37,868 bases of DNA from Oscillospiraceae bacterium (GTDB taxonomy: Bacteria; Bacillota; Clostridia; Oscillospirales; Ruminococcaceae), in the NCBI GenBank assembly GCA_017550285.1, contig JAFZPP010000006.1:1-37868 (forward strand), written 5' to 3'. Positions 13,471 to 26,036 of this stretch are shown here, piece by piece. Both the position numbers and the translations under genes were made by a program. The notes beneath the pieces were generated by a model. The model did not search any database. It saw only the letters and a program-made list of their open reading frames with translations, and was not told the DNA's origin. Numbering within the stretch: position 1 is the first letter of the stretch; each line of letters opens with the position of its first letter.

Positions 13471-14610
13471 TCATGTAAACATACATCTGATGCGCGAAAT
13501 TGTACGAACAAGCCGCGATCTGAACGTCGTTTTCTGCGCAACTTGTACATTTTCCGCCGCAAGAACCGGTGTCCGCGCAATCTCAACGGCACCGCATCGC
13601 CAGATCATTTCGCCGATCTGATCGCCGCGCTGTACGGGCGCCGTCAGGAAGGGCTGCAGCACTGCCGTCACGCTGCATTCCGGCGGCTTGCCGTACCATG
13701 CGGTCAGCTTCGGCGCCTCGCGGACATAGCCCGAAACCGCCTGCACATCGCCGCCCTCAACCTGCACCGTCAGCGGCTCCGGCAGCGGCGGCGTATAATC
13801 CTCCGCACCGGCAAAGCCGTAATCATAGAGCGCCTCGTGATCGGACCAGTCATTGCGGTCATTGAGCGTCACGCAAATCAGCGTGCGTTCCTGCCGCCTT
13901 GCCGCACTGACGAGACAGCGCCCCGCGGCATCGGTAAAGCCGGTCTTGACGCCGATCACCGTATCATCCGTGCCGAGCAGCTTATTCGTATTCGTCAGCG
14001 TGCGCGCATAGGGCGGATTCCCGTAGCAGACGGTCATGGTCTGCCGGCAGCAGATCGCCGCAAATTCCGGATTCCTGAGTGCCTCACGCGCCAGCAGCGC
14101 CATATCATACGCCGAAGCGCCGTGTCCCTCTGCATCCAGCCCCGAGGGCGAGGCGAAATAGCTGTGCGTCATGCCGATCTGCTTGGCGCGCGCATTCATC
14201 ATCGCCAGAAACTGCGGGATACTCCCCCCGACGCTGACCGCCGCGGCATTCGCGCCGTCATTGCCCGAGGGCAGCAGCATCCCTGCGCAGAGCGCCCGCC
14301 GCGTGACGGTATCACCTTCCTGCAAGCCCATAGACGAGCCCTCGACGCGGATTGCCTCGCTGTCTGCAAGGAAGGGCGTATCGAGATCGCCGCTTTCGAG
14401 CGTCAGCAGCGTGGTCATGATCTTGGTCGTGCTTGCCATGGGCAGCTTCTCCTGCGCATTCTGCTGAAAGACCGCAAAGCCTGTCTGCGCATCCACGAGG
14501 ACGCAGCCCTTCGCGGAGATATCCGGTGCATCGGCAGCAGCAGGCAGACCGTACAGACAGCCGCACAGCACGGCAGCGCAGCAGATCAGCTTCCGGAACA
14601 TTTGTATCAT
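13471..14610 (-). CDS. D-alanyl-D-alanine carboxypeptidase (S11 family, DacF/PBP5-like)
   Basis: This penicillin-binding protein trims the terminal D-Ala from peptidoglycan stem peptides outside the membrane. The 379-residue product has a signal peptide (about 1-26, MIQMFRKLICCAAVLCGCLY...AAADA). The three active-site motifs are S60-T-T-K63, S115-G-N117 and K222-T-G224. A beta-rich C-terminal domain (about 270-360) follows, then a basic, potentially membrane-binding tail. The ATG at 14610 was chosen because AAAGGGGAA lies just upstream; an ATG at 14601 is possible. In sporulating relatives dacF is often next to the spoIIA operon; that context is absent here, so the symbol is withheld. Confidence 0.93.
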   Translation of the reverse strand: MIQMFRKLICCAAVLCGCLYGLPAAADAPDISAKGCVLVDAQTGFAVFQQNAQEKLPMASTTKIMTTLLTLESGDLDTPFLADSEAIRVEGSSMGLQEGDTVTRRALCAGMLLPSGNDGANAAAVSVGGSIPQFLAMMNARAKQIGMTHSYFASPSGLDAEGHGASAYDMALLAREALRNPEFAAICCRQTMTVCYGNPPYARTLTNTNKLLGTDDTVIGVKTGFTDAAGRCLVSAARRQERTLICVTLNDRNDWSDHEALYDYGFAGAEDYTPPLPEPLTVQVEGGDVQAVSGYVREAPKLTAWYGKPPECSVTAVLQPFLTAPVQRGDQIGEMIWRCGAVEIARTPVLAAENVQVAQKTTFRSRLVRTISRIRCMFT

Positions 14611-14663
14611 ACAGAATTCCCCTTTGTTCGGTTTCTGTTTGATTCTATGCACAGCCCGCGGGA

Positions 14664-16089: not shown

Positions 16090-16760
16090 TTGTGTCAATA
16101 TCCGTTGATGTCCTGTGCTGTCATGTCCTGCGCTGTCATGTGCTTCTGCCGGACGGTGCGGTCATTGCATTGCTGTCGAAACTGTGATGTCGCTTTGCTG
16201 CATTGCCTGTGTCAGACTGTGCTGTCATACTGCGGTGTCTCTGCTGTGCTGTCACTGTGTCGCCTCTGTTCTGTCAGACTGTGATGCCGCCTGTCGCCCG
16301 ATTGCTGTCAAGCTTTGCTGTCTGAACTTCGCTGTCATGCTGTCGCTTCATTCATTGTCTTACACGGTTGTCTTGCTTTGCTGTCTGACTGTGCTGTCAT
16401 TCTGTCGCTTCATTCACTGTCTTACACGGTTGTCTTGCTTTGCTGTCTGACTGTGCTGTCATTCTGTCGCTTCATTCATTGTCTTACACGGTTGTCATGC
16501 TTTGCTGTCTGAACTGTGCTGTCATGCTGTCGCTTCATTCACTGTCTTACACGGTTGTCTTGCTTTGCTGTCTGGACTGTGCTGTCATGCTGTCGCTTCA
16601 TTCATTGTCTTACACGGTTGTCTTGCTTTGCTGTCATGCTGTCGCTTCATTTATTGTCAAAACAAAGTTGTCAGGCTTGCTGTCTTGCTGTGCTGTCATT
16701 TGTGTCAGTTCTGAATTGCCGGTCATGTTGTCAAACTGTGCTGTCCTGCAAAGCTGTCTG
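16090..16760. repeat. TGTC-rich tract with a 62-bp tandem repeat
   Basis: TGTC occurs every 8-15 bases through the tract. From about 16337 to 16660 it forms five head-to-tail copies of a 62-63-bp unit that begins CTGTCGCTTCATTC, contains TTACACGGT and ends GACTGTGCTGTCATT. Inside each unit consecutive TGTC motifs are 13 bases apart. All three plus-strand frames stay open for long runs and give Cys/Leu/Ser-rich nonsense without ribosome binding sites, while the minus strand is full of stops from TGACA. I read it as non-coding. The rest of the gene-free span 15968-17255 holds the hairpin above and, at 16760-17250, nothing I can name. Confidence 0.85.
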
Positions 16761-17164: not shown

Positions 17165-17202
17165 GCAGTCCGGTTACACATCCGCTGCAAAAACCGGCAG
17201 TC
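17165..17202 (-). terminator. Possible terminator of the ABC cluster
   Basis: On the minus strand CCGGTT (17192-17197) can pair with AACCGG (17170-17175), followed a few bases later by GTTTTTCC. The loop is long (16 bases) and the stem short, so this is tentative. Confidence 0.3.
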
Positions 17203-17255
17203 TGCACAAAGGCGGACGCACAGTCCCCTGCACATCCGCCCCGTATGATATTCAT

Positions 17256-17939
17256 TCAGGCAGCCGCCTGCCGCTTGCAGACCGCCGCCGATATCCGGTG
17301 TGAGATCAGAAAGAGCAGCGCCGTGCCCAGTGCCGCCGCCAGATAGAGCAGCTCATCCTGCATCAGATAGCTGCCCGAAAGCGCCGCGCCCCGATAGTAG
17401 ATCAGGTACATCAGGCAGAGCGTCAGGCTCAAAAACACCGCACACGCCCCCGCACGCTGCCCGAACCGCAGCAGCACCGGCAGATAGACCGCAGGCATCA
17501 GCAGCGCAGCCGTCCCCATTGTCCAGATCATCTGCGGCTTGGTCATCAGCGTCATGAAGGCAAATTCGCCCTCGGGCATCGTCACGCGGCTGAAATGTAT
17601 CCTGTCTGTATAGATGCTGCGGAAAAAGCCCAGACGGGTCTCCTCCGGAATGCAGCAGACAGAGAGCAGCAGAATGCCCGTCAGCAGCGCCGTCACCAGA
17701 TAATACAGATCGGCACGCGCCGACGCCTTCTGCGGCATTGTCCGGACATATGCATCAAACCGGCTCCGCTCATCCGCACCCGCCGAAAGCAGCGGATACA
17801 GCCCGATTGCAATGGCAAGCGCATAGTAAAAATAAAAGCTCTTGCTCGTGAAAAACGGCGGCAGAATCACCGCAGCCGCGATGCCGGTCAGAAACAGCAG
17901 CCGGAAGGTATACCATTCCTTCAGCAGCAGTCCCTTCAT
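17256..17939 (-). CDS. ABC-2-type permease paralogue E
   Basis: The 227-residue integral membrane protein has about six predicted membrane segments. It shares with four other proteins of this cluster an N-terminal KGLLLKEWYTFR, a central SRFDAYVRTMPQKA motif (about 59-73), and PAVYLPVLLRFG at 149-160. These fit the small ABC-2 permease family in which a pair of half-size subunits works with one ATPase. The start overlaps the preceding gene by four bases (ATGA), with GGAGGTG upstream. It is the last gene of the leftward cluster; a weak terminator may follow. The substrate is unknown; antimicrobial-peptide export or lipid handling are the usual roles of YtrA-linked systems. Confidence 0.75.
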   Translation of the reverse strand: MKGLLLKEWYTFRLLFLTGIAAAVILPPFFTSKSFYFYYALAIAIGLYPLLSAGADERSRFDAYVRTMPQKASARADLYYLVTALLTGILLLSVCCIPEETRLGFFRSIYTDRIHFSRVTMPEGEFAFMTLMTKPQMIWTMGTAALLMPAVYLPVLLRFGQRAGACAVFLSLTLCLMYLIYYRGAALSGSYLMQDELLYLAAALGTALLFLISHRISAAVCKRQAAA

Positions 17940-18619
17940 GTCTGCACCTCCGTTTCCTGCCGGACAGCTTTCTGATTCAGGCAGGATGCAGCCGCTGCAT
18001 TGCAGGAATATACAAACATTCCGACAATCAATATCGCAGGCAGCAGCAAAGTCGCTTTCAGATCAGTCAAAAAACCGCTGCACATATAATCAAACCGGAA
18101 TAACAGATGCATACATACCGCAAGCAGCACACCTGCACCAGCAGCGAAGGAACCTGCTTTCGCGCCCTTCCGCAGCATCACCGGCAGATACACCGCAGGA
18201 ATCAGTATCGCAGTCAGCCCGAGCAGCAGCGCAAAGTGCGTATGTGTCTCCAGCGGACCGAATTCAATATAACCGTGCTCAACTGCTACGGCAATGAGAC
18301 TGATCCGGAACATGGAATCCCGCATCAGATAGATCGTATCCTCACCCGGGATCAGGCATACTGTCAGCATCAGCAGCACCGACATGCCCGCAACCAGCAG
18401 CATATAGACACGGATCTGATCGGTCGTTCCGCAGCCGCTTCTGCAATACGAGAACAGCGGATACAGCCCGATCAGCACAGCGAGCACATGGTACAGATGA
18501 AAACTCAGTCCGCAAAATGTCTGCGACAGCACCACAGCCGCCAGCACAATGATGCACAGCAGCGGCAGGAATTTCCGGCATTCCGCATGCAGCAGCGATT
18601 CCATGTTTTGATTCTTCAT
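17936..18619 (-). CDS. ABC-2-type permease paralogue D (divergent)
   Basis: The 227-residue membrane protein is related to its neighbours through IGLYPLFSYC (about 50-59) and PAVYLPVMLRKG at 141-152. It lacks the SRFxxYxxxMP motif that follows the second membrane segment in the others; instead it reads CRSGCGTTDQIRVYML at about 59-74. The N terminus also departs from the KGLL-WYTxR pattern. It is open and intact at the DNA level, with GAGGGGA upstream of the ATG. This suggests a subunit that has diverged in role, or one losing constraint. Its stop overlaps paralogue E (ATGA). Confidence 0.7.
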   Translation of the reverse strand: MKNQNMESLLHAECRKFLPLLCIIVLAAVVLSQTFCGLSFHLYHVLAVLIGLYPLFSYCRSGCGTTDQIRVYMLLVAGMSVLLMLTVCLIPGEDTIYLMRDSMFRISLIAVAVEHGYIEFGPLETHTHFALLLGLTAILIPAVYLPVMLRKGAKAGSFAAGAGVLLAVCMHLLFRFDYMCSGFLTDLKATLLLPAILIVGMFVYSCNAAAASCLNQKAVRQETEVQT

Positions 18620-18638
18620 AATGTTCCCCTCATTTCTG

Positions 18639-19250
18639 TCAATATTTCTTCGTTTGCAGCGCCCTCGCGCTCAGACACCGCGAGACCGCAAACAGCAGCA
18701 CAGGCGCCGCAACCGGAAGCAGTCCGGCGGTCAGGAACGCTGTCAGCTCCTGCGGCGGAACGACGAGTAAGCCCCAGAGATCAATCACACTGACAATCAG
18801 CAGCACATACGGCAGAATCATTCCGATTGCCGTCAGCCTTCCCGCAGCAATCCCGAAGCGGAAGGTTACAGGCAGATACACCGCCGGCGCAAGCAGACAG
18901 AGCACCGTCAGTATGCCTGCAACAGTCGCCCAGCCCTCATCCAGTCCGACCCAGAACCAGATCACCGTATGCACCGACAGCAGCAGCAGCGTCAGCATTG
19001 CAGTAAACAGATAATATGCATCCGCATAGCGCTGCCGTTTCAGGGGCAGAATCAGATGCCAGCGGTCAAAATGCGAGACCGCGTCATCATTCAGCGCAAC
19101 TATCGGCAGCGTCGCAATCATCAGCGCCGCAAAGGGCTCCATGCACAGATACAGCATCTTATGATAACACATGCACGCGAGCAGCGCCGCAGCCATTGCA
19201 AGCAGCTTGAAACGGTGCGTATACCACAGTCTTTTCAGCAGTCCGCGCAT
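18639..19250 (-). CDS. ABC-2-type permease paralogue C
   Basis: The 203-residue membrane protein has the family marks: MRGLLKRLWYTHR at the N terminus, SHFDRWHLILPLKRQRYADAYY (about 59-80) and PAVYLPVTFRFG at 122-133. About six membrane segments are predicted by hydrophobicity. AGGAGGTG lies 8 bases before the ATG. The DAYYL segment is identical in kind to that of paralogue B (21117-21740), so C and B look like the closest pair. Confidence 0.75.
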   Translation of the reverse strand: MRGLLKRLWYTHRFKLLAMAAALLACMCYHKMLYLCMEPFAALMIATLPIVALNDDAVSHFDRWHLILPLKRQRYADAYYLFTAMLTLLLLSVHTVIWFWVGLDEGWATVAGILTVLCLLAPAVYLPVTFRFGIAAGRLTAIGMILPYVLLIVSVIDLWGLLVVPPQELTAFLTAGLLPVAAPVLLFAVSRCLSARALQTKKY

Positions 19251-19300
19251 GATGCTCCACCTCCTTTTTCTGTATGCAGGCGATTTATGTCATGCGGCAT

Positions 19301-19903
19301 TCACACACCGCTGACACGAATCTCATTCCTGTTTTGATATTCCGGTTCAAGCGGACTGAACGGCTGACCGTTTCCTTCCTGATAGCTGACTGAACCGTTC
19401 CGCGAAAATTCTTCCCTTCCCATTTTCATGGAAAGCTGATAATCAAAGGTTTTGGATGCGGTATCGGCATCCACATTCAGCGCCACATCCGTCATCTCCC
19501 AGCAGCACGGCACAATTACATCGACCGGTATGCACACAGGCTCCGGCATGTTTTCCGTCTGAAAGGTAACTGCAAACGGCTGCGAACCGTATTCCCCGCC
19601 TTCGCAGCGGAATCTGCCGCCGGATTCCAGACTCTGAAAATCCGAGACACTGTTGATCTGTAGATTTGCCAGAACCCCTCCCTGCACATCACTGCTTTGC
19701 AGCCGGCAGGGTTTGCCGTCTACGTGCACGGTTACGCTGCAAGTCATGCGCGGACCGGAATACAAGTGACAGTAAACCGCATGCGCGAACCCCTCATGCA
19801 CGCACCACAAAAACAGCAGCGCTGCTGCGATCAGGAACGCAAATGCTGTCAGAAGGACCGCAGGCTTTATCCTGCGCTTTTTCTTCGTTTCCGTCTGTGT
19901 CAT
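19301..19903 (-). CDS. Membrane-anchored extracytoplasmic protein, copy 2
   Basis: The 200-residue protein has a Lys/Arg-rich start (TETKKKRRIK), one membrane segment (about 14-34) and an outside domain. The domain begins RMTCSVTVHVDGKPCRL, the same pattern as LKCRVTLTVDGEPYRL in the next gene upstream. Both also share a GGxxGxxxYGxxPFxxxxQTExM block, PVCIPV or PLYLPV, and a closing DADTAxxTFxY. They are therefore paralogues. I do not recognise the family; a beta-sandwich accessory domain is a guess. The start was set at 19903, where GGGGGGATCC precedes the ATG, rather than at 19930. The spacing to the permease genes suggests one transcript. Confidence 0.75.
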   Translation of the reverse strand: MTQTETKKKRRIKPAVLLTAFAFLIAAALLFLWCVHEGFAHAVYCHLYSGPRMTCSVTVHVDGKPCRLQSSDVQGGVLANLQINSVSDFQSLESGGRFRCEGGEYGSQPFAVTFQTENMPEPVCIPVDVIVPCCWEMTDVALNVDADTASKTFDYQLSMKMGREEFSRNGSVSYQEGNGQPFSPLEPEYQNRNEIRVSGV

Positions 19904-19942
19904 AAGGATCCCCCCTTTGCTGTATCTCATTCTGCTGACGGA

Positions 19943-20572
19943 TCAGGCGCCGCTTGCATATACCCATTCGATGTCCCAGTATCTTTTATTCATGCAGCTT
20001 TCGCTTTGCAGAGCACCTGCTCCTTTATAGTAATCCACGCCGTTGCTGCTGTCAGCATAGCCATAGCTGGTTTCGTGAAAATCCGGCTCGCCGATCGGCA
20101 CGTTTCTTCTTTTTCCTTCTCTCCGCGTCGCGGTATAGGAAAAAGTTCCCTTTGCGGTGTCCGCTTCAATGTCCATGGTATAATTTGCCTGCTCGACTAT
20201 GTTGCATCTGCCGGGCGCAACAGGGAGATATAACGGTTTCTGCATATCCTCCGTCTGAATACGGATCTCAAACGGATGGTTGCCGTATCCAATGCCCCAG
20301 AGACCGACGGTTCCGCCCTGTTTTGTCGGTAAGACATATGCGGTCGAAGTCGGGCTGACGTCGTTCCCGATCGCCAGACCGGACACATTTTTGCCGGTAA
20401 GCCGGTACGGTTCCCCGTCAACAGTCAGCGTTACGCGGCATTTCAACCGCGGCAGCGGATAAAATGCCGCATAGAGATCGTATGCAAATGTCCCGATGAT
20501 CAAACGCCAGAACAGCAGAAATCCGATCAGGAAAGCGGCGGCTTTTTTCAGCTTTTTCTTATTTTTGAACAT
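19943..20572 (-). CDS. Membrane-anchored extracytoplasmic protein, copy 1
   Basis: The 209-residue protein starts MFKNKKKLKK, has one membrane segment (about 11-31, AAAFLIGFLLFWRLIIGTFAY) and an outside domain with the motifs shared with copy 2: CRVTLTVDGEPYRL (about 45-58), the YGNHPFEIRIQTEDM block (about 96-110), PLYLPV and IEADTAKGTFSYT. The C-terminal part is Tyr/Ser-rich and not shared. AAGGAG lies 10 bases before the ATG. Placed among permease genes, it may act as a surface accessory or sensing subunit; that is inference. Confidence 0.75.
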   Translation of the reverse strand: MFKNKKKLKKAAAFLIGFLLFWRLIIGTFAYDLYAAFYPLPRLKCRVTLTVDGEPYRLTGKNVSGLAIGNDVSPTSTAYVLPTKQGGTVGLWGIGYGNHPFEIRIQTEDMQKPLYLPVAPGRCNIVEQANYTMDIEADTAKGTFSYTATRREGKRRNVPIGEPDFHETSYGYADSSNGVDYYKGAGALQSESCMNKRYWDIEWVYASGA

Positions 20573-20593
20573 ATACAGTCAACTCCTTTCCGT

Positions 20594-21088
20594 TCACCGG
20601 ATATCTGTATTTTCCGATGCAGATGCAGTTTCATCCGGTTCCGAAGACGCTTTCCGGCGGCGTTCCGCACCACACCGGATAATACCGGCTGCCAGATAGA
20701 TCAGTGCAGCCGCAGCCAGCGGCGGCACAAGATAAAACAGGAATTCAGAAGAATGACCGGCGCATAATTCGCAGGAGCATCCGGCAGCTGAAAGTCTGCG
20801 CAGCGAAGCCGCAGCAATGCAGGCAGCGGCTACCCCGCAGATCGCAAACATGATCGTTTCGCGGCTGATGCGCTGTGAAAATCGACGGAGCAGGTTCGCG
20901 ATCATGCTGATGACTGCCGCAGCAGCGCAGCCGATCGTCAGCCAGATCAGAACAGCCGTCAGCATCGAAATCGAATCCAGATCGTTGAACGCAAACAGCA
21001 AAAGCAGCATCACAAGCGATGCGAAAACGAGCCGGACAGTCTTTGCGCTTTCCGTTTCCGGCGAATACGTTTGAGCAGTATATTTCAT
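20594..21088 (-). CDS. Small integral membrane protein
   Basis: The 164-residue protein has about four hydrophobic segments (about 18-34, 40-64, 78-98, 118-138), a short Cys pair (CSCELC near 108-113) in the loop before the last one, and an Arg-rich, acidic cytoplasmic tail. It does not show the PAVYLP motif of the permeases. AAGGAGG lies 7 bases before the ATG. Its place in the middle of the ABC cluster suggests an accessory role. I do not recognise it. Confidence 0.7.
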   Translation of the reverse strand: MKYTAQTYSPETESAKTVRLVFASLVMLLLLFAFNDLDSISMLTAVLIWLTIGCAAAAVISMIANLLRRFSQRISRETIMFAICGVAAACIAAASLRRLSAAGCSCELCAGHSSEFLFYLVPPLAAAALIYLAAGIIRCGAERRRKASSEPDETASASENTDIR

Positions 21089-21116
21089 AATCTGTCCTCC
21101 TTATCACTTTGTCAAG

Positions 21117-21740
21117 TCAGAATTCCCGTTTTTCGATGATGCGGACGGAAATCATCCGCGAAATGCCGAACAGCAGCAGTGCGGCAATGCCGGGCAGCAG
21201 TGCATCCGCCCCGTAGTGCACCGTGACAGTGCCGAGCTCGCCGCCCTCCGGAGACGTATAGAATAACATCGTCATCAAGAGTATCATGGATACTGCCGGA
21301 AACATCATAAGCACCAGCACCAGACCGACCGCAGCCGCCTTGGTGCCGAACCGGAACGCAAACGGCAGGACAATCGCAGGCACCGCCAGACAGATCGCCG
21401 ACAGTTGAAATATCCGGAGAACAGCCTCCGCCTTGTTATAGTGCAGCATAATCAGTGCAGCCCAGAGCACCGCGCCGGCGGTCAGAAGCAGCGTCAGCAG
21501 ATAATACGCATCTGCAATCCGTCCGCGCGGAACCGGCAGGAGCGTCTGCCAGCGTGCAAAGCGCGATTGTTCATCGAGCAGCAGAAGCAGGAACGGCAGC
21601 GCGGCTATGCAGAGAGACAGCATTGTGATGATCGAACATGCAAGAATCGGGTTGATCAGCGTCAGAATCAACAGTGCGGCTGCTGCGACAATCACCGGAA
21701 TCCGGATCGTATACCACATACGGAGCAATATACTTTTCAT
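21117..21740 (-). CDS. ABC-2-type permease paralogue B
   Basis: The 207-residue membrane protein has MKSILLRMWYTIR at the start, DEQSRFARWQTLLPVPRGRIADAYYLL (about 56-82) and PAIVLPFAFRFG at 121-132. About six membrane segments are expected. The protein ends RIIEKREF; paralogue A ends RRREF. AGAGGTAA precedes the ATG. It follows paralogue A by 21 bases, the classic position for the partner half-permease of an ATPase-permease-permease unit. Confidence 0.8.
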   Translation of the reverse strand: MKSILLRMWYTIRIPVIVAAAALLILTLINPILACSIITMLSLCIAALPFLLLLLDEQSRFARWQTLLPVPRGRIADAYYLLTLLLTAGAVLWAALIMLHYNKAEAVLRIFQLSAICLAVPAIVLPFAFRFGTKAAAVGLVLVLMMFPAVSMILLMTMLFYTSPEGGELGTVTVHYGADALLPGIAALLLFGISRMISVRIIEKREF

Positions 21741-21761
21741 TGTTTGTTACCTCTTGAATTG

Positions 21762-22457
21762 TCAGAATTCTCTGCGGCGGAATCCCCATAAAGAGAGCAG
21801 CCACGAGAGCAGTGTCAGAATCAGCGCGCCGGAAACGGAAACTGCAATAATCTGCGAGCTGTCGGCATCGAGCAGCATGCACAGCAGCCGCGAAACTGCT
21901 GTATTGCCTGCCAGAAGCGGAAAGCATCCGTGCAGAACCTTTGCGGAAAGCAAGCCGTGTGCTTCTGCCGCTTCCGTGACGGCAAGCTCGCCGGTAATCA
22001 GAACGGCAAAGCTGACAATCAGCAGAATATAGACCGCCTTCCCCTTGCCGTATCCGAAACGAAAGCAAACCGGAAAGTAAACCGCCGGAATCAGAATGCC
22101 GCCCATGCAGGCACGCACAATCCAGAGCGTATAATCCGAGACAGACATCTCACCTTGCAGCAGAAACCGCAGCATGCCGATACTCAGCAGCACTGCCGAA
22201 ACAGCGGTGCAGAACAGCATCAGCAGATATTTTTCCGTGACGATTCCAAAGCGCGACACCGGCATCGTCAGCTGATAGCTTTCCCAGCGGCTGACAGCAT
22301 CCTTCGGCATACCGTCAATCGGCAGCATTCCGATCATCAGCGCAGAAAATGCAAGAAAATACGGAATTTTCAGTGCAGTGCCCGCAAGGAGCATTGCCGT
22401 AAATACCAGCAGCGGAACGAAGATGCCGGAGAGGTCTTTGCAGAGCAAGCCCTTCAC
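21762..22457 (-). CDS. ABC-2-type permease paralogue A
   Basis: The 231-residue membrane protein has MKGLLCKDL at the start, AVSRWESYQLTMPVSRFGIVTEKYLL (about 54-79, the coupling segment typical of the ABC2_membrane_5-like family) and PAVYFPVCFRFG at 124-135. A GTG at 22457 is preferred: it gives the MKGLL start seen in the paralogues and lies 7 bases after AGGAGG. The GTG at 22463 would overlap the ribosome binding site. The gene directly follows the ATPase, so A is probably its primary partner. Confidence 0.82.
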   Translation of the reverse strand: MKGLLCKDLSGIFVPLLVFTAMLLAGTALKIPYFLAFSALMIGMLPIDGMPKDAVSRWESYQLTMPVSRFGIVTEKYLLMLFCTAVSAVLLSIGMLRFLLQGEMSVSDYTLWIVRACMGGILIPAVYFPVCFRFGYGKGKAVYILLIVSFAVLITGELAVTEAAEAHGLLSAKVLHGCFPLLAGNTAVSRLLCMLLDADSSQIIAVSVSGALILTLLSWLLSLWGFRRREF

Positions 22458-22459
22458 AG

Positions 22460-23290
22460 TCACCCCTCCTTTGCCATGTAGACAAAGAGTTCCTCGATTG
22501 TGACGGGGCGGATATCGAAGGTCTGCGGCACGAGTTTCCGGTCTACGAGCGCCTCTGCGCCGTACTGCGTGACACGTTTGCCCCTGATTGCGGCAGGCTC
22601 GAGTGCATCGAGGTTTTCGGCGGTTGTTTGCAGGAATCCGTACTGCTCGAGCAGACGGTCCTTTTCCTCGCAGAGCATGAGCTGTCCCTTATGCAGAAAC
22701 GCAATATAATCACAAACTTTTTCGAGATCGCTGACAATATGCGAGGAGATCAGCACTGCATGCCCCTCGTCCCGCGTGAACTCATTGAGGATATCGAGCA
22801 GCTCCTCACGGACAAGCGGATCAAGTCCCGCGGTCGGCTCATCCAGAATCAGCAGCTTTGCATCGTGTGACAGTGCAATCGCCAGCCCGAGCTTCATTTT
22901 CATGCCCTTGGAGAAGGTCCGGAAGCGCTTGTTCTCCGGCAGATTGAACTTCTTGATATATTCAGCAAATACGTCACTTTTCCAATTCCGAAACGAGTAT
23001 TTCATGATCTTTTCAATCTGCGGGATACGGAGATTTTCCGGCAGCCCGACCTCATCGAGCACCACGCCGGTCTCATTGCGCAGATCGGCGGAGAGCGGCT
23101 GACCGAGCAGTCTGATCTCGCCGCTGTCGGGATGGTTCATGCCGAGCAGCGCCTTGATGGTTGTCGTCTTGCCGGCACCGTTTTCGCCGATCAGACCGAG
23201 GATGCAGCCCGCCGGAAGCGTCAGAGAGAGCGGACCGAGCGAGAAGCCTTTGTATTTTTTTGCGATGTTGCTGATTTCGATTGCGTTCAT
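22460..23290 (-). CDS. ABC transporter ATP-binding protein
   Basis: The 276-residue ATPase powers the cluster's permeases from the cytoplasmic side. It has Walker A GENGAGKTT (35-43), a signature loop FSKGM (126-130) in place of LSGGQ, Walker B LLILDEP (146-152) and the switch His in ISSH (H184). The FSKGM variant is common in ABC-2 exporters of the YtrB/BcrA type. The C-terminal extension of about 60 residues fits the same group. AAAGGAG precedes the ATG. It is the only ATPase in a cluster that encodes five permease-like subunits. It lies 18 bases after the GntR gene. Confidence 0.95.
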   Translation of the reverse strand: MNAIEISNIAKKYKGFSLGPLSLTLPAGCILGLIGENGAGKTTTIKALLGMNHPDSGEIRLLGQPLSADLRNETGVVLDEVGLPENLRIPQIEKIMKYSFRNWKSDVFAEYIKKFNLPENKRFRTFSKGMKMKLGLAIALSHDAKLLILDEPTAGLDPLVREELLDILNEFTRDEGHAVLISSHIVSDLEKVCDYIAFLHKGQLMLCEEKDRLLEQYGFLQTTAENLDALEPAAIRGKRVTQYGAEALVDRKLVPQTFDIRPVTIEELFVYMAKEG

Positions 23291-23308
23291 GATGAAGCTC
23301 CTTTCGTG

Positions 23309-23677
23309 TCAGGTATCCAGCAGGTCAAGCATTTGGATGATATCCTGCTTTGACATGCCGCAGGCGGCGGCGAGCTGCCGGATCTCGAGCAGATGATTTT
23401 CGATTTGTTTCAAGTGTTCCTCGCGGAGAAGCTCGGTATTTTTCGGTGCGACGAAGCATCCCTTCGCAGGGACGGTATAGAGAAAGCCCTCGCGTTCGAG
23501 CTCATCATAGGCGCGCTTGGTCGTGACGACGCTGATGCGCAAATCCTTTGCGAGGCTGCGGATCGACGGCAGCGGGTCATTTTCGCTGAGTGCGCCGCTG
23601 ATGATGAGTGCCTTGATCTGCGAATAAATCTGATCGTAGATCGGCGCACCGCTTTTGTTGTCGATAAACAGGTTCAT
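23309..23677 (-). CDS. GntR-family transcriptional regulator (YtrA subfamily)
   Basis: The 122-residue protein has the N-terminal winged helix of GntR proteins (PIYDQIYSQIKALIISGAL...LPSIRSLAKDLRISVVTTKRAYDELEREGFL) and only a short helical C-terminal part (about 45 residues) instead of a large effector domain, which defines the YtrA subfamily. Such proteins typically repress their own ABC operon and are relieved by cell-wall antibiotics. The ATG at 23677 follows GAGGTGAG; the longer frame from 23707 would start at the transcription start site. It is the first gene of the leftward ABC cluster and has a consensus promoter. Confidence 0.92.
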   Translation of the reverse strand: MNLFIDNKSGAPIYDQIYSQIKALIISGALSENDPLPSIRSLAKDLRISVVTTKRAYDELEREGFLYTVPAKGCFVAPKNTELLREEHLKQIENHLLEIRQLAAACGMSKQDIIQMLDLLDT

Positions 23678-23700
23678 GCTCTCACCTCGTTCTGTTTCAC

Positions 23701-23740
23701 TGTTCATATACAGTATACACAGTTAGCACAGTTTTGTCAA
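23701..23740 (-). promoter_or_regulatory. Promoter and likely operator of the GntR-ABC cluster
   Basis: On the minus strand TTGACA (23735-23740) and TATACT (23712-23717) are 17 bases apart. The spacer and downstream flank contain repeated ACTGTG/ACTGTA with an opposed AACAGT, an arrangement suited to a dimeric GntR regulator and so to autoregulation. The operator reading is inference. Confidence 0.7.
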
Positions 23741-23973: not shown

Positions 23974-24999
23974 TTGGATTCTTCATATGATATCATCTCG
24001 GCGCTCAGCAGCCTGCACGGCGTATCCGGCAGAGAGGCTGCCGTCGGGCAAGCCGTCGCGGAGCGCATCCGTCCCTATGCACCGGATGTCCGCTGCGATG
24101 ACGGCAATGTCATTGCGCATATCGGGCAGGATGCCGGCAAACCGACTTTGCTGCTCTGTGCGCATCTCGATCAGGTCGGCTTTCTCGTCACCGATATCAC
24201 GCCGGACGGCTTTCTCCGGATCGGCGCAGTCGGCGGCATAGATCACCGGCTGCTGCTCGGTCAGCCCGTCACGGTCGAAGGCAGTTTGCCGCTCTCCGGC
24301 GTCATTTCGATTCTGCCGCCGCATCTGCTGAAAGGCGAACAGGCGGTGCCGGAGGATGCACAGCTCTGCGTCGATCTCGGATTTGATTCCGCAGAAGCGC
24401 TCGTCGGCAAGGTATCGCGCGGCGATGCGGTATATTTTGCGGTCGCCTGCCGGAAGATGCAGGGTTCCCGCATGACCGGTCCGGCGCTGGATGACCGCTG
24501 CGGCGCAGCAGCATTGATTCTCGCGGCGGAACAGATCAGCCGCATGCACGATCTGCCCTGCAATGTCACATTCGCATTCGTCGGGCAGGAGGAGCGCAGC
24601 GGACACAGAGGCGCAAAGCGCGCCGCATTCGCAGAAACACCGGATTATGCGATTGCCGTGGACGTCACCTTCGGGCTGGCACACGGCGAGGACCCGCAGG
24701 AAACCTTCCCGCTCGGCGGCGGTCCTGCAATCGGCATCTCGGCGGTGCTGGATGCAGCACTTTCCGATGCGCTGACCGATGCTGCAAAGGCGCTGCATAT
24801 CCCCTATCAGCTTGAAATCATGCCCGAATCGACCGGCACGGACGCGGATGCGCTGGCACTCGCGCCGCAGGGTACACGGGCTGGCACGGTCTCGATCCCG
24901 CTGCGCTATATGCACACGCCGGTCGAGGTCATTGATACAAAGGATGTCGAACTGACCGCGCAGCTTCTCGCGGCATTTGCAGGGAGGTGCGGCGCATGA
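23974..24999 (+). CDS. M42-family metalloaminopeptidase, copy 1
   Basis: M42 enzymes are cytoplasmic, self-compartmentalised dodecameric aminopeptidases with two metal ions that degrade peptides. The 341-residue protein shows all expected ligands and catalytic residues: H64 and D66 (AHLDQ), D174 (LDDRCG), E206-E207 (QEER), D230 and H314 (RYMHTP). The start is TTG: AAAAGGAGG lies 8 bases before it and no in-frame ATG is near. The stop overlaps the start of a second M42 gene (ATGA). Cellulase-linked or glutamyl aminopeptidase labels are often applied to this family; the specificity here is unknown. Confidence 0.92.
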   Translation: MDSSYDIISALSSLHGVSGREAAVGQAVAERIRPYAPDVRCDDGNVIAHIGQDAGKPTLLLCAHLDQVGFLVTDITPDGFLRIGAVGGIDHRLLLGQPVTVEGSLPLSGVISILPPHLLKGEQAVPEDAQLCVDLGFDSAEALVGKVSRGDAVYFAVACRKMQGSRMTGPALDDRCGAAALILAAEQISRMHDLPCNVTFAFVGQEERSGHRGAKRAAFAETPDYAIAVDVTFGLAHGEDPQETFPLGGGPAIGISAVLDAALSDALTDAAKALHIPYQLEIMPESTGTDADALALAPQGTRAGTVSIPLRYMHTPVEVIDTKDVELTAQLLAAFAGRCGA

Positions 25000-26036
25000 A
25001 CCGGCAGGAACTGAATACCCTCTGCGAACTCTGCGGCACATCCGGCAGAGAACACGCGGTCCGCGCATATATTCTCGATGAAATTGCAAAGCTCCGTCTG
25101 CCGGAGGATGCCGTCACGGTTGACCGGCTCGGCAATGTGCTTGTGCATAAAAAGGGCGCATCTGCTGCAAAACGAAAGGTGATGCTCTCCGCGCATACGG
25201 ACGAGGTCGCGCTCATGGTCACATATATCCACGAGGACGGCACGCTCGCCTTTGACACAGTCGGCGGCATCAGTGCGGCGGCGGTGATCGGACGGCAGGT
25301 ACAGGTCGGAAAAGACCGCATCTGCGGCGTCATCGGCTGCAAGCCCGTGCATCTGCTCTCGAAGGATGCGCGCACAAAGCCTGCGGATATGCACAGCCTG
25401 TTCTGCGATATCGGCACCGGCTCGAAGGCGGAGACCGAACAGCTTGTCCGTCTCGGCGACATCATTTATTTCTGCGGCGATGCGCAGGATTTCGGCAATG
25501 ATTCGCTGAAAGCAAAGGCAATCGACGACCGCTTCGGCTGTGAGATTCTGCTGGAGCTGCTCCGCAGTGATCTGCCGTATGATACGGATTTTGCATTTGT
25601 GGTGCAGGAGGAGGTCGGGCTGCGCGGCGCGGGTGTTGCGGCAGCACAGCTTGATCCGGAGATTGCTGTCATTTTCGAGGCGACGACTGCGGCGGATATT
25701 GCCGGTTCCTCCGGCTCCGACCGCTGCTGCGAGCTCGGCAGAGGCGCCGTCATTTCCTATATGGACGGCAGAACCGTCTACGACAAGGCGCTCTATGATC
25801 TTGCGGTACGCATCTGCGAAGAAAACAGCATCCCGTGGCAGACAAAGACCAAAATCGCAGGCGGAAATGATGCCGGTTCGATTCAGTCTGCCGGACGCGG
25901 CGCAAGAGTGCTTGCCGTCAGCGTGCCTTGCAGATATCTGCACAGTCCGCTGTCGGTGATTCGCCGTGCAGATGCCGATGCCTGCGAAAAGCTCGCATTT
26001 GCTCTGATCTCCGCATTACAGGAGGAAGCGCTTTGA
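24996..26036 (+). CDS. M42-family metalloaminopeptidase, copy 2
   Basis: The 346-residue protein is a second M42 peptidase, with H67 and D69 (AHTDE), D178 (IDDRFG), E205-E206 (QEEVGLRG), E228 (IFEATT) and H316 (RYLHSP). The fourth ligand is Glu, where copy 1 has Asp (D230), so the two probably differ in specificity. GGGAGGTG precedes the ATG at 24996, which overlaps the copy 1 stop. The two may form mixed or separate dodecamers, as reported for archaeal M42 (TET) peptidases; that is inference. Its own stop overlaps the next gene's TTG start. Confidence 0.92.
   Translation: MNRQELNTLCELCGTSGREHAVRAYILDEIAKLRLPEDAVTVDRLGNVLVHKKGASAAKRKVMLSAHTDEVALMVTYIHEDGTLAFDTVGGISAAAVIGRQVQVGKDRICGVIGCKPVHLLSKDARTKPADMHSLFCDIGTGSKAETEQLVRLGDIIYFCGDAQDFGNDSLKAKAIDDRFGCEILLELLRSDLPYDTDFAFVVQEEVGLRGAGVAAAQLDPEIAVIFEATTAADIAGSSGSDRCCELGRGAVISYMDGRTVYDKALYDLAVRICEENSIPWQTKTKIAGGNDAGSIQSAGRGARVLAVSVPCRYLHSPLSVIRRADADACEKLAFALISALQEEAL

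Follow-up and report, generated by a model that had tools for sequence, protein, structure and literature searches.

The stretch of DNA analysed here, hereafter the window, comprises 37,868 nucleotides (nt) of contig JAFZPP010000006.1 from an Oscillospiraceae bacterium (assembly GCA_017550285.1). Ten genes, all on the minus strand between positions 17256 and 23740, encode in this order a GntR regulator, an ATP-binding cassette (ABC) ATPase, two permeases (P1 and P2), a small membrane protein (M1), two single-pass proteins (S1 and S2) and three more permeases (P3, P4 and P5) (Table 1). The original prediction, made from the letters of the DNA, had described one ATPase followed by eight closely spaced, leftward membrane proteins, among them five paralogous permeases and two paralogous surface proteins. 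The gene calls, Pfam and BLASTP bear out this composition, and the cluster is real; the quoted permease and S-protein motifs are present too, with variants in P2 (PAIVLPFAFRFG) and P4 (PAVYLPVMLRKG). As to its function, I incline, with slightly more confidence than doubt, to the view that one motor drives several permease dimers of a self-regulated export operon.

Table 1. Features of the operon, listed by position in the window
Feature	Position	Strand	Evidence or remark
Hairpin, likely terminator	17190..17258	-	directly 3' of P5; -28.2 kcal/mol, z -3.1 versus shuffles
P5, ABC-2 permease, sister of P4	17256..17939	-	PF13346 33.8 bits; tree
P4, permease paralogue without the docking segment between transmembrane helices 2 and 3	17936..18619	-	alignments, model
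P3, ABC-2 permease	18639..19250	-	PF13346 45.0 bits; counterparts in G012, G001, G002
S2, paralogue of S1	19301..19903	-	BLASTP against S1, E 1e-22
S1, single-pass protein with predicted outside domain	19943..20572	-	family alignment; window-specific in the array
M1, small protein with four transmembrane helices, CxCxxCxGH before the last	20594..21088	-
P2, ABC-2 permease	21117..21740	-	PF13346 43.4 bits; counterparts in G012, G001, G002
P1, ABC-2 permease	21762..22457	-	PF13346 72.7 bits; counterparts in G012, G001, G002
ABC ATPase, PmtA-like, the operon's sole ATPase	22460..23290	-	Pfam ABC_tran 96.4 bits
GntR regulator, YtrA/PmtR type, 122 residues	23309..23677	-	Pfam GntR 55.5 bits
Putative GntR operator, imperfect palindrome covering the -10 box	23699..23723	-
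Promoter, TTGACA, 17 nt, TATACT	23712..23740	-	agrees with the consensus at 11 of 12 positions; best-matching site in the region, just upstream of the regulator

One motor gene behind one control region

The ten genes follow one another at distances of -4 to +50 nt, each start being preceded by a purine-rich stretch (by eye). Inspection, again by eye, of 15 upstream regions (from 27 loci) within and outside the genus shows the promoter-operator block in 14 of them; RUG14906 is the exception. With up to three mismatches allowed, the operator is found once in the window and once in the source genome, which is 96% complete. The regulator most likely starts at 23677 rather than 23707, since the longest frame opens within the operator; the starts of S2 and P1 were likewise corrected, probably to 19903 and 22457, respectively. 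The hairpin behind P5 has a short T run and was not listed by a consensus terminator scan. Because a single promoter and operator stand in front and a single hairpin follows P5, the whole operon is likely to form one transcript.

Three candidates were rejected. The only other promoter-like site, at 21115-21087 (10 of 12 matches), enters the M1 start codon, has no operator and was judged to be a chance match, the scan as a whole having found 13 sites versus 6.2 expected. A terminator-like site inside S2 (19808-19832) folds no better than shuffled sequences (z -0.62). A defence-system reading was dropped: PADLOC matched the ATPase alone, through its generic fold, and none of the eight other proteins scanned.

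The Pfam family ABC2_membrane_5 (PF13346, cut-off 25 bits) is reached by P1, P2, P3 and P5 and not by P4; no Pfam family scores above its own cut-off for P4, M1, S1 or S2. P4 is paralogous to P5 (BLASTP among the ten proteins, E 5e-23) and is recovered by an iterated permease hidden Markov model with P4 in its seed. The permease paralogues are about 19-36% identical, and the array therefore does not result from a recent rise in copy number. For P1, no relative of solved structure was found by sequence.

Recurrence of the permease arrays

In gut clostridia the rule is an ordinary unit of regulator, ATPase and single permease. Named loci with an ATPase akin to that of the window were compared, the best 80 among the matches listed: 64 have one permease (3 at a contig edge), 11 have two, 3 have three, and one each has four and five; two of these loci, L082 with five and L083 with three, were judged to be the arrays of genomes G004 and G042. 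In a family sample of 197 genomes, 110 gave a permease match (E 1e-12 or better), and three gave at least three in a row (the window's genome, G467 and G349), as counted by eye, so that weaker copies would escape. Gene calls yield a regulator, an ATPase and three permeases in G467, and a regulator, an ATPase and two permease frames in G349, versus three matches in the search.

Within the genus, 9 of 30 genomes carry three to six permeases behind one ATPase: five in the window, G012, G001, G021, G004 and G041, six in G002, and three in G003 and G042. The G012 array is split over two contigs, their linkage being inferred, and in G008 the contig ends after one permease. The permease search, read by eye and with a model that P4-like members escape, gave no run of at least three in the other 20 genomes. 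Within the array stretches no second ATPase of the same family was found (E 1e-30); the ATPase search of the genus covered 25 of the 30 genomes, the remaining five being reached through the permease search. The 42 array permease genes, of 198-267 codons, contain neither stops nor frameshifts, G012 P3 being cut by the contig end. The search of related genomes for conserved gene order that the original prediction had proposed thus finds multi-permease arrays conserved in sister species, and none of the outcomes it had named as damaging appeared: no separate promoters or ATPases for the distal permeases, no broken gene among the 42, no lack of conservation. The array is a real variation on a known exporter unit, and one that is both recurrent and conserved.

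Separate expansions and unequal constraint

The permease tree has 73 rows: 20 of the 27 loci supplied 62 of them, and loci with a single permease the other 11; RUG14529_2 is represented by its C-terminal 240 residues. In this tree each of P1, P2, P3 and the P4/P5 pair clusters with its counterparts from G012, G001 and G002. A second lineage (G021, G041, G004, G003 and G042) has derived permeases that form a group of their own (support 100/99), and a third group holds the derived permeases of Ruminococcus SIG541 and SIG543 (100/100). Joining seven second-lineage rows (positions 2 and 3) to the P2 group was rejected by the approximately unbiased (AU) test (p-AU 1.8e-5), as was joining eight (positions 2 to 5) to the P3-P5 group (p-AU 0.002), for groups that were picked after inspection of the tree and include several long-branched rows. 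On the tree, three or more independent expansions are the favoured history, one that ancient gene conversion could imitate. In G001 and G002 the second permease clusters, at a modest 85/82, with the first-position permeases of the other lineage; this type, the closest to the single permeases, has no counterpart in the window or in the first contig of G012.

Between the window and G012, the ratio of nonsynonymous to synonymous rates (dN/dS, Nei-Gojobori) is about 0.09 for the ATPase, 0.23 for P5, 0.36 for P2, 0.50 for P1 and 0.65 for P3. The ATPase is under strong constraint, and P5, P2, P1 and P3 under a weaker one that is still present. The rate comparison leaves out the extra permease G002_4 and the G001 regulator (partnerless on the G002 contig). 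Since the single-like type is missing in the window and yet the ATPase is strongly constrained, the derived permeases probably do the work. Permease identity is 0.49-0.96 between the window and G012 and 0.42-0.71 between G001 and G002. In a control comparison of 54 of the 80 best named loci, only 3 of 137 pairs of single-permease loci had ATPases at least 85% alike (permease identity 0.61-0.90); with so few usable pairs, neither diversifying selection nor faster-than-usual permease evolution is claimed.

A putative docking segment and a permease without it

I take the loop between the second and third transmembrane helices (TM2 and TM3) to carry the coupling helix, as in type V ABC exporters. 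Compared with its paralogues, P4 is without twelve aligned residues at this place, where P5 reads SRFDAYVRTMPQKASARADLYYL; in the P4 model (predicted local distance difference test, pLDDT, 78.6) a turn of four residues leads from TM2 (39-61) to TM3 (66-89). Among permeases of the same genome, the putative docking segment (28 columns) is more alike than the remainder in 12 of 12 arrays, and when P4 is left aside at most 8.4% of other stretches exceed it.

At the DNA level, P4 and the extreme end of P3 match G012 at 98-100% identity between about 18663 and 18084 (100-nt steps), identity dropping to 93-96% by about 17904, and the flanking regions are 68-92% identical. Because a near-identical tract lies here between diverged flanks, the simplest reading is that a single permease gene was recently exchanged between two species.

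Add-on proteins and neighbouring genes

M1 belongs to neither the permease nor the S group. Its relatives occupy the matching gap in two other arrays, three of them in G001 and one in G002; CxxCxGH is common to four of the five M1-family array members, three of which have an extra upstream cysteine, and the family is possibly metal-binding. Relatives also occur outside arrays within the genus. These gave no functional lead; one in G001, for example, lies between a PF00860 permease and an Upp-like gene (sequence reading).

S1 and S2 are 33% identical over 128 residues, and a single N-terminal hydrophobic helix behind a lysine-rich start suggests that both lie at the surface. A search of 61 relatives matched the family in 11, every one a member of the genus; across the order it turned up in 3 of 295 genomes, one of them that of the window. 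At four of eight loci outside the window (G000, G012, G001 and G021) the S gene stands between uvrB (sequence reading) and an SF0329/HAD-type gene; in G041 such a gene follows it; at the other three (G007, G008 and G013) S genes lie elsewhere, each time as two copies side by side. The SF0329/HAD call by Pfam was made at the G000 locus, and the survey of S neighbours leaves out G003, G004 and G044. Loci with S-family genes include L058 (7929-8498), L063, L166 and L068. The arrays of the other genomes yielded no S protein, that of G012 being broken by a contig gap; the G002 array has an unrelated single-pass protein. S1 and S2 are best seen as recruits from a nearly genus-restricted family that stand outside the conserved core, and the surface proteins do not form the conserved accessory part that had been predicted. 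As to fold, the S1/S2 model, at pLDDT 47, was too poor to suggest a function, and the family profile gave no convincing match in Pfam or against PDB sequences (best E 0.78).

Two adjoining M42 aminopeptidase genes (23974-26036, Pfam) are divergent from the operon; the pair also flanks the G012 operon and lies near that of G003 (sequence reading). In the gap behind the operon is a tandem repeat (16312-16635) of 5.2 copies of a 63-bp unit, 94% alike, and farther downstream a D-alanyl-D-alanine carboxypeptidase gene (Peptidase_S11, 13471-14652).

Discussion

A shared motor is favoured because of the gene content and spacing, the one operator and one final hairpin, the arrays in 9 of 30 genomes with their 42 unbroken permease genes and no second array ATPase, the positional counterparts, the constraint, and the docking segment in 12 of 12 arrays. 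Several observations weigh against it. When P4 is counted, more alike than the docking segment are 15.9% of other stretches in the window and 14.6% in G012, where the PAVYLPV region surpasses it. Single permeases of 14 different genomes show an equal preference for the segment (0.49 versus 0.30); the segment therefore marks use of this type of ATPase and is only consistent with sharing. P4, with few changes, has a dN/dS of about 1 versus G012 and may be decaying. Finally, three more ATPases related to this one are encoded in the source genome, where each is accompanied by a permease pair of its own; they could act in trans.

Among known systems, the closest layouts are ClnRAB and Pmt, not YtrBCDEF; the earlier YtrA-type label is nonetheless fair, since the regulator scores best against PmtR. 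Clostridioides difficile ClnRAB is one self-regulated operon of a YtrA-subfamily GntR regulator, an ATPase and an ABC-2-like permease (PMC6117091); compared by layout alone, the order regulator, ATPase, ABC-2 permease recurs in the window and its relatives, with one permease there and five in the window. In Staphylococcus Pmt the regulator gene is first and the operator overlaps the transcript start (PMC5080381). The best NCBIfam matches of the window regulator and ATPase are PmtR (108 bits, below the cut-off of 200) and PmtA (247 bits, below that of 350), but Pmt has two ATPases, PmtC being the second, and two permeases, whereas the window operon has one ATPase. Bacillus YtrBCDEF consists of two ATPases, two permeases and YtrF (PMC7828314); it resembles the window in being a GntR (YtrA) operon with two transmembrane proteins and differs from the ten-gene cluster, which has one ATPase and, by Pfam, no YtrF-like gene. 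Sharing of one ATPase by many permeases, here proposed, is established for the multitask ATPases of sugar importers, MsmX and MsmK (PMC7658222); those are type I systems with permeases from distinct transport systems, whereas the window permeases are ABC-2 exporters within one operon. A search of the open-licence literature with a few terms found no description of an ABC-2 exporter with one ATPase and at least three permeases.

Could the five permeases instead belong to a single machine for one kind of substrate, either a large hetero-oligomer or a fixed permease pair with regulatory or stabilising paralogues? I consider this unlikely. In its favour, P1, P2, P3 and P5 recur jointly and in fixed order in G012, G001 and G002, P4 without its docking segment resembles a heteromer subunit, and one ATPase works with two permeases in LanFEG lantibiotic immunity (the window ATPase scores 143 bits against TIGR03740, the lantibiotic-protection ATPase, below its cut-off of 310). 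Permease number, however, is not constant (3 to 6 in the genus, 1 to 5 in the best named loci), and each of P1, P2, P3 and P5 has kept the docking segment. Still less probable is that the ATPase serves P1 alone, or perhaps P1 and P2, and that the others are duplicates being lost or powered in trans. A dN/dS that climbs to 0.65 for P3 and to about 1 for P4 would fit such a loss, and the other three ATPases of the genome could supply the power; but none of the 42 permease genes is broken, P2, P3 and P5 are deeply conserved, and each of those ATPases already has its permease pair. It is very improbable that the complex, instead of pumping, is mainly a sensor that reports membrane-active compounds to the regulator and alters wall or metabolism, a role proposed for ClnRAB and reported for YtrBCDEF: ClnAB is reported to contribute to the ClnR response to LL-37 (PMC6117091) and YtrBCDEF overexpression to thicken the wall (PMC7828314), but the operator occurs once in the genome, so that no wider regulon of it is seen, and growth of the permease set would fit a broader substrate range better than signalling.

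For a shared motor, the following sequence of events may be envisaged. The operon would be a self-regulated exporter built on the gut-clostridial unit of regulator, ATPase and permease, whose GntR protein would act at the operator and, by analogy with PmtR and ClnR, be switched by a membrane-active peptide or amphiphile. An ATPase homodimer would dock on the conserved cytoplasmic segment of P1, P2, P3 or P5, and a single motor would power several permease dimers, probably differing in specificity; alternative permease pairs for different substrates, as originally suggested, are possible. P4 could not take the ATPase in the normal way and, if it works, would most likely be the silent half of a P4-P5 heterodimer. 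M1, S1 and S2 would be additions peculiar to the lineage that may bind the compound on the outer side of the membrane. Of the original interpretation, the one regulator, ATPase, promoter with operator and final hairpin, and the conserved arrays, stand; the conserved accessory surface proteins fall. A more far-reaching scheme, which I put forward tentatively and with more doubt than belief, is a modular exporter in which one inducible motor serves an expandable cassette of interchangeable permease halves that form homo- and heterodimers, the non-docking P4 included, and in which tandem duplication adds new specificities and species swap them, no new motors being needed.

Should one motor indeed be shared, the natural series of one to six permeases behind one ATPase would open to direct test both how an exporter changes its specificity and how it tolerates a half-transporter without a docking segment.

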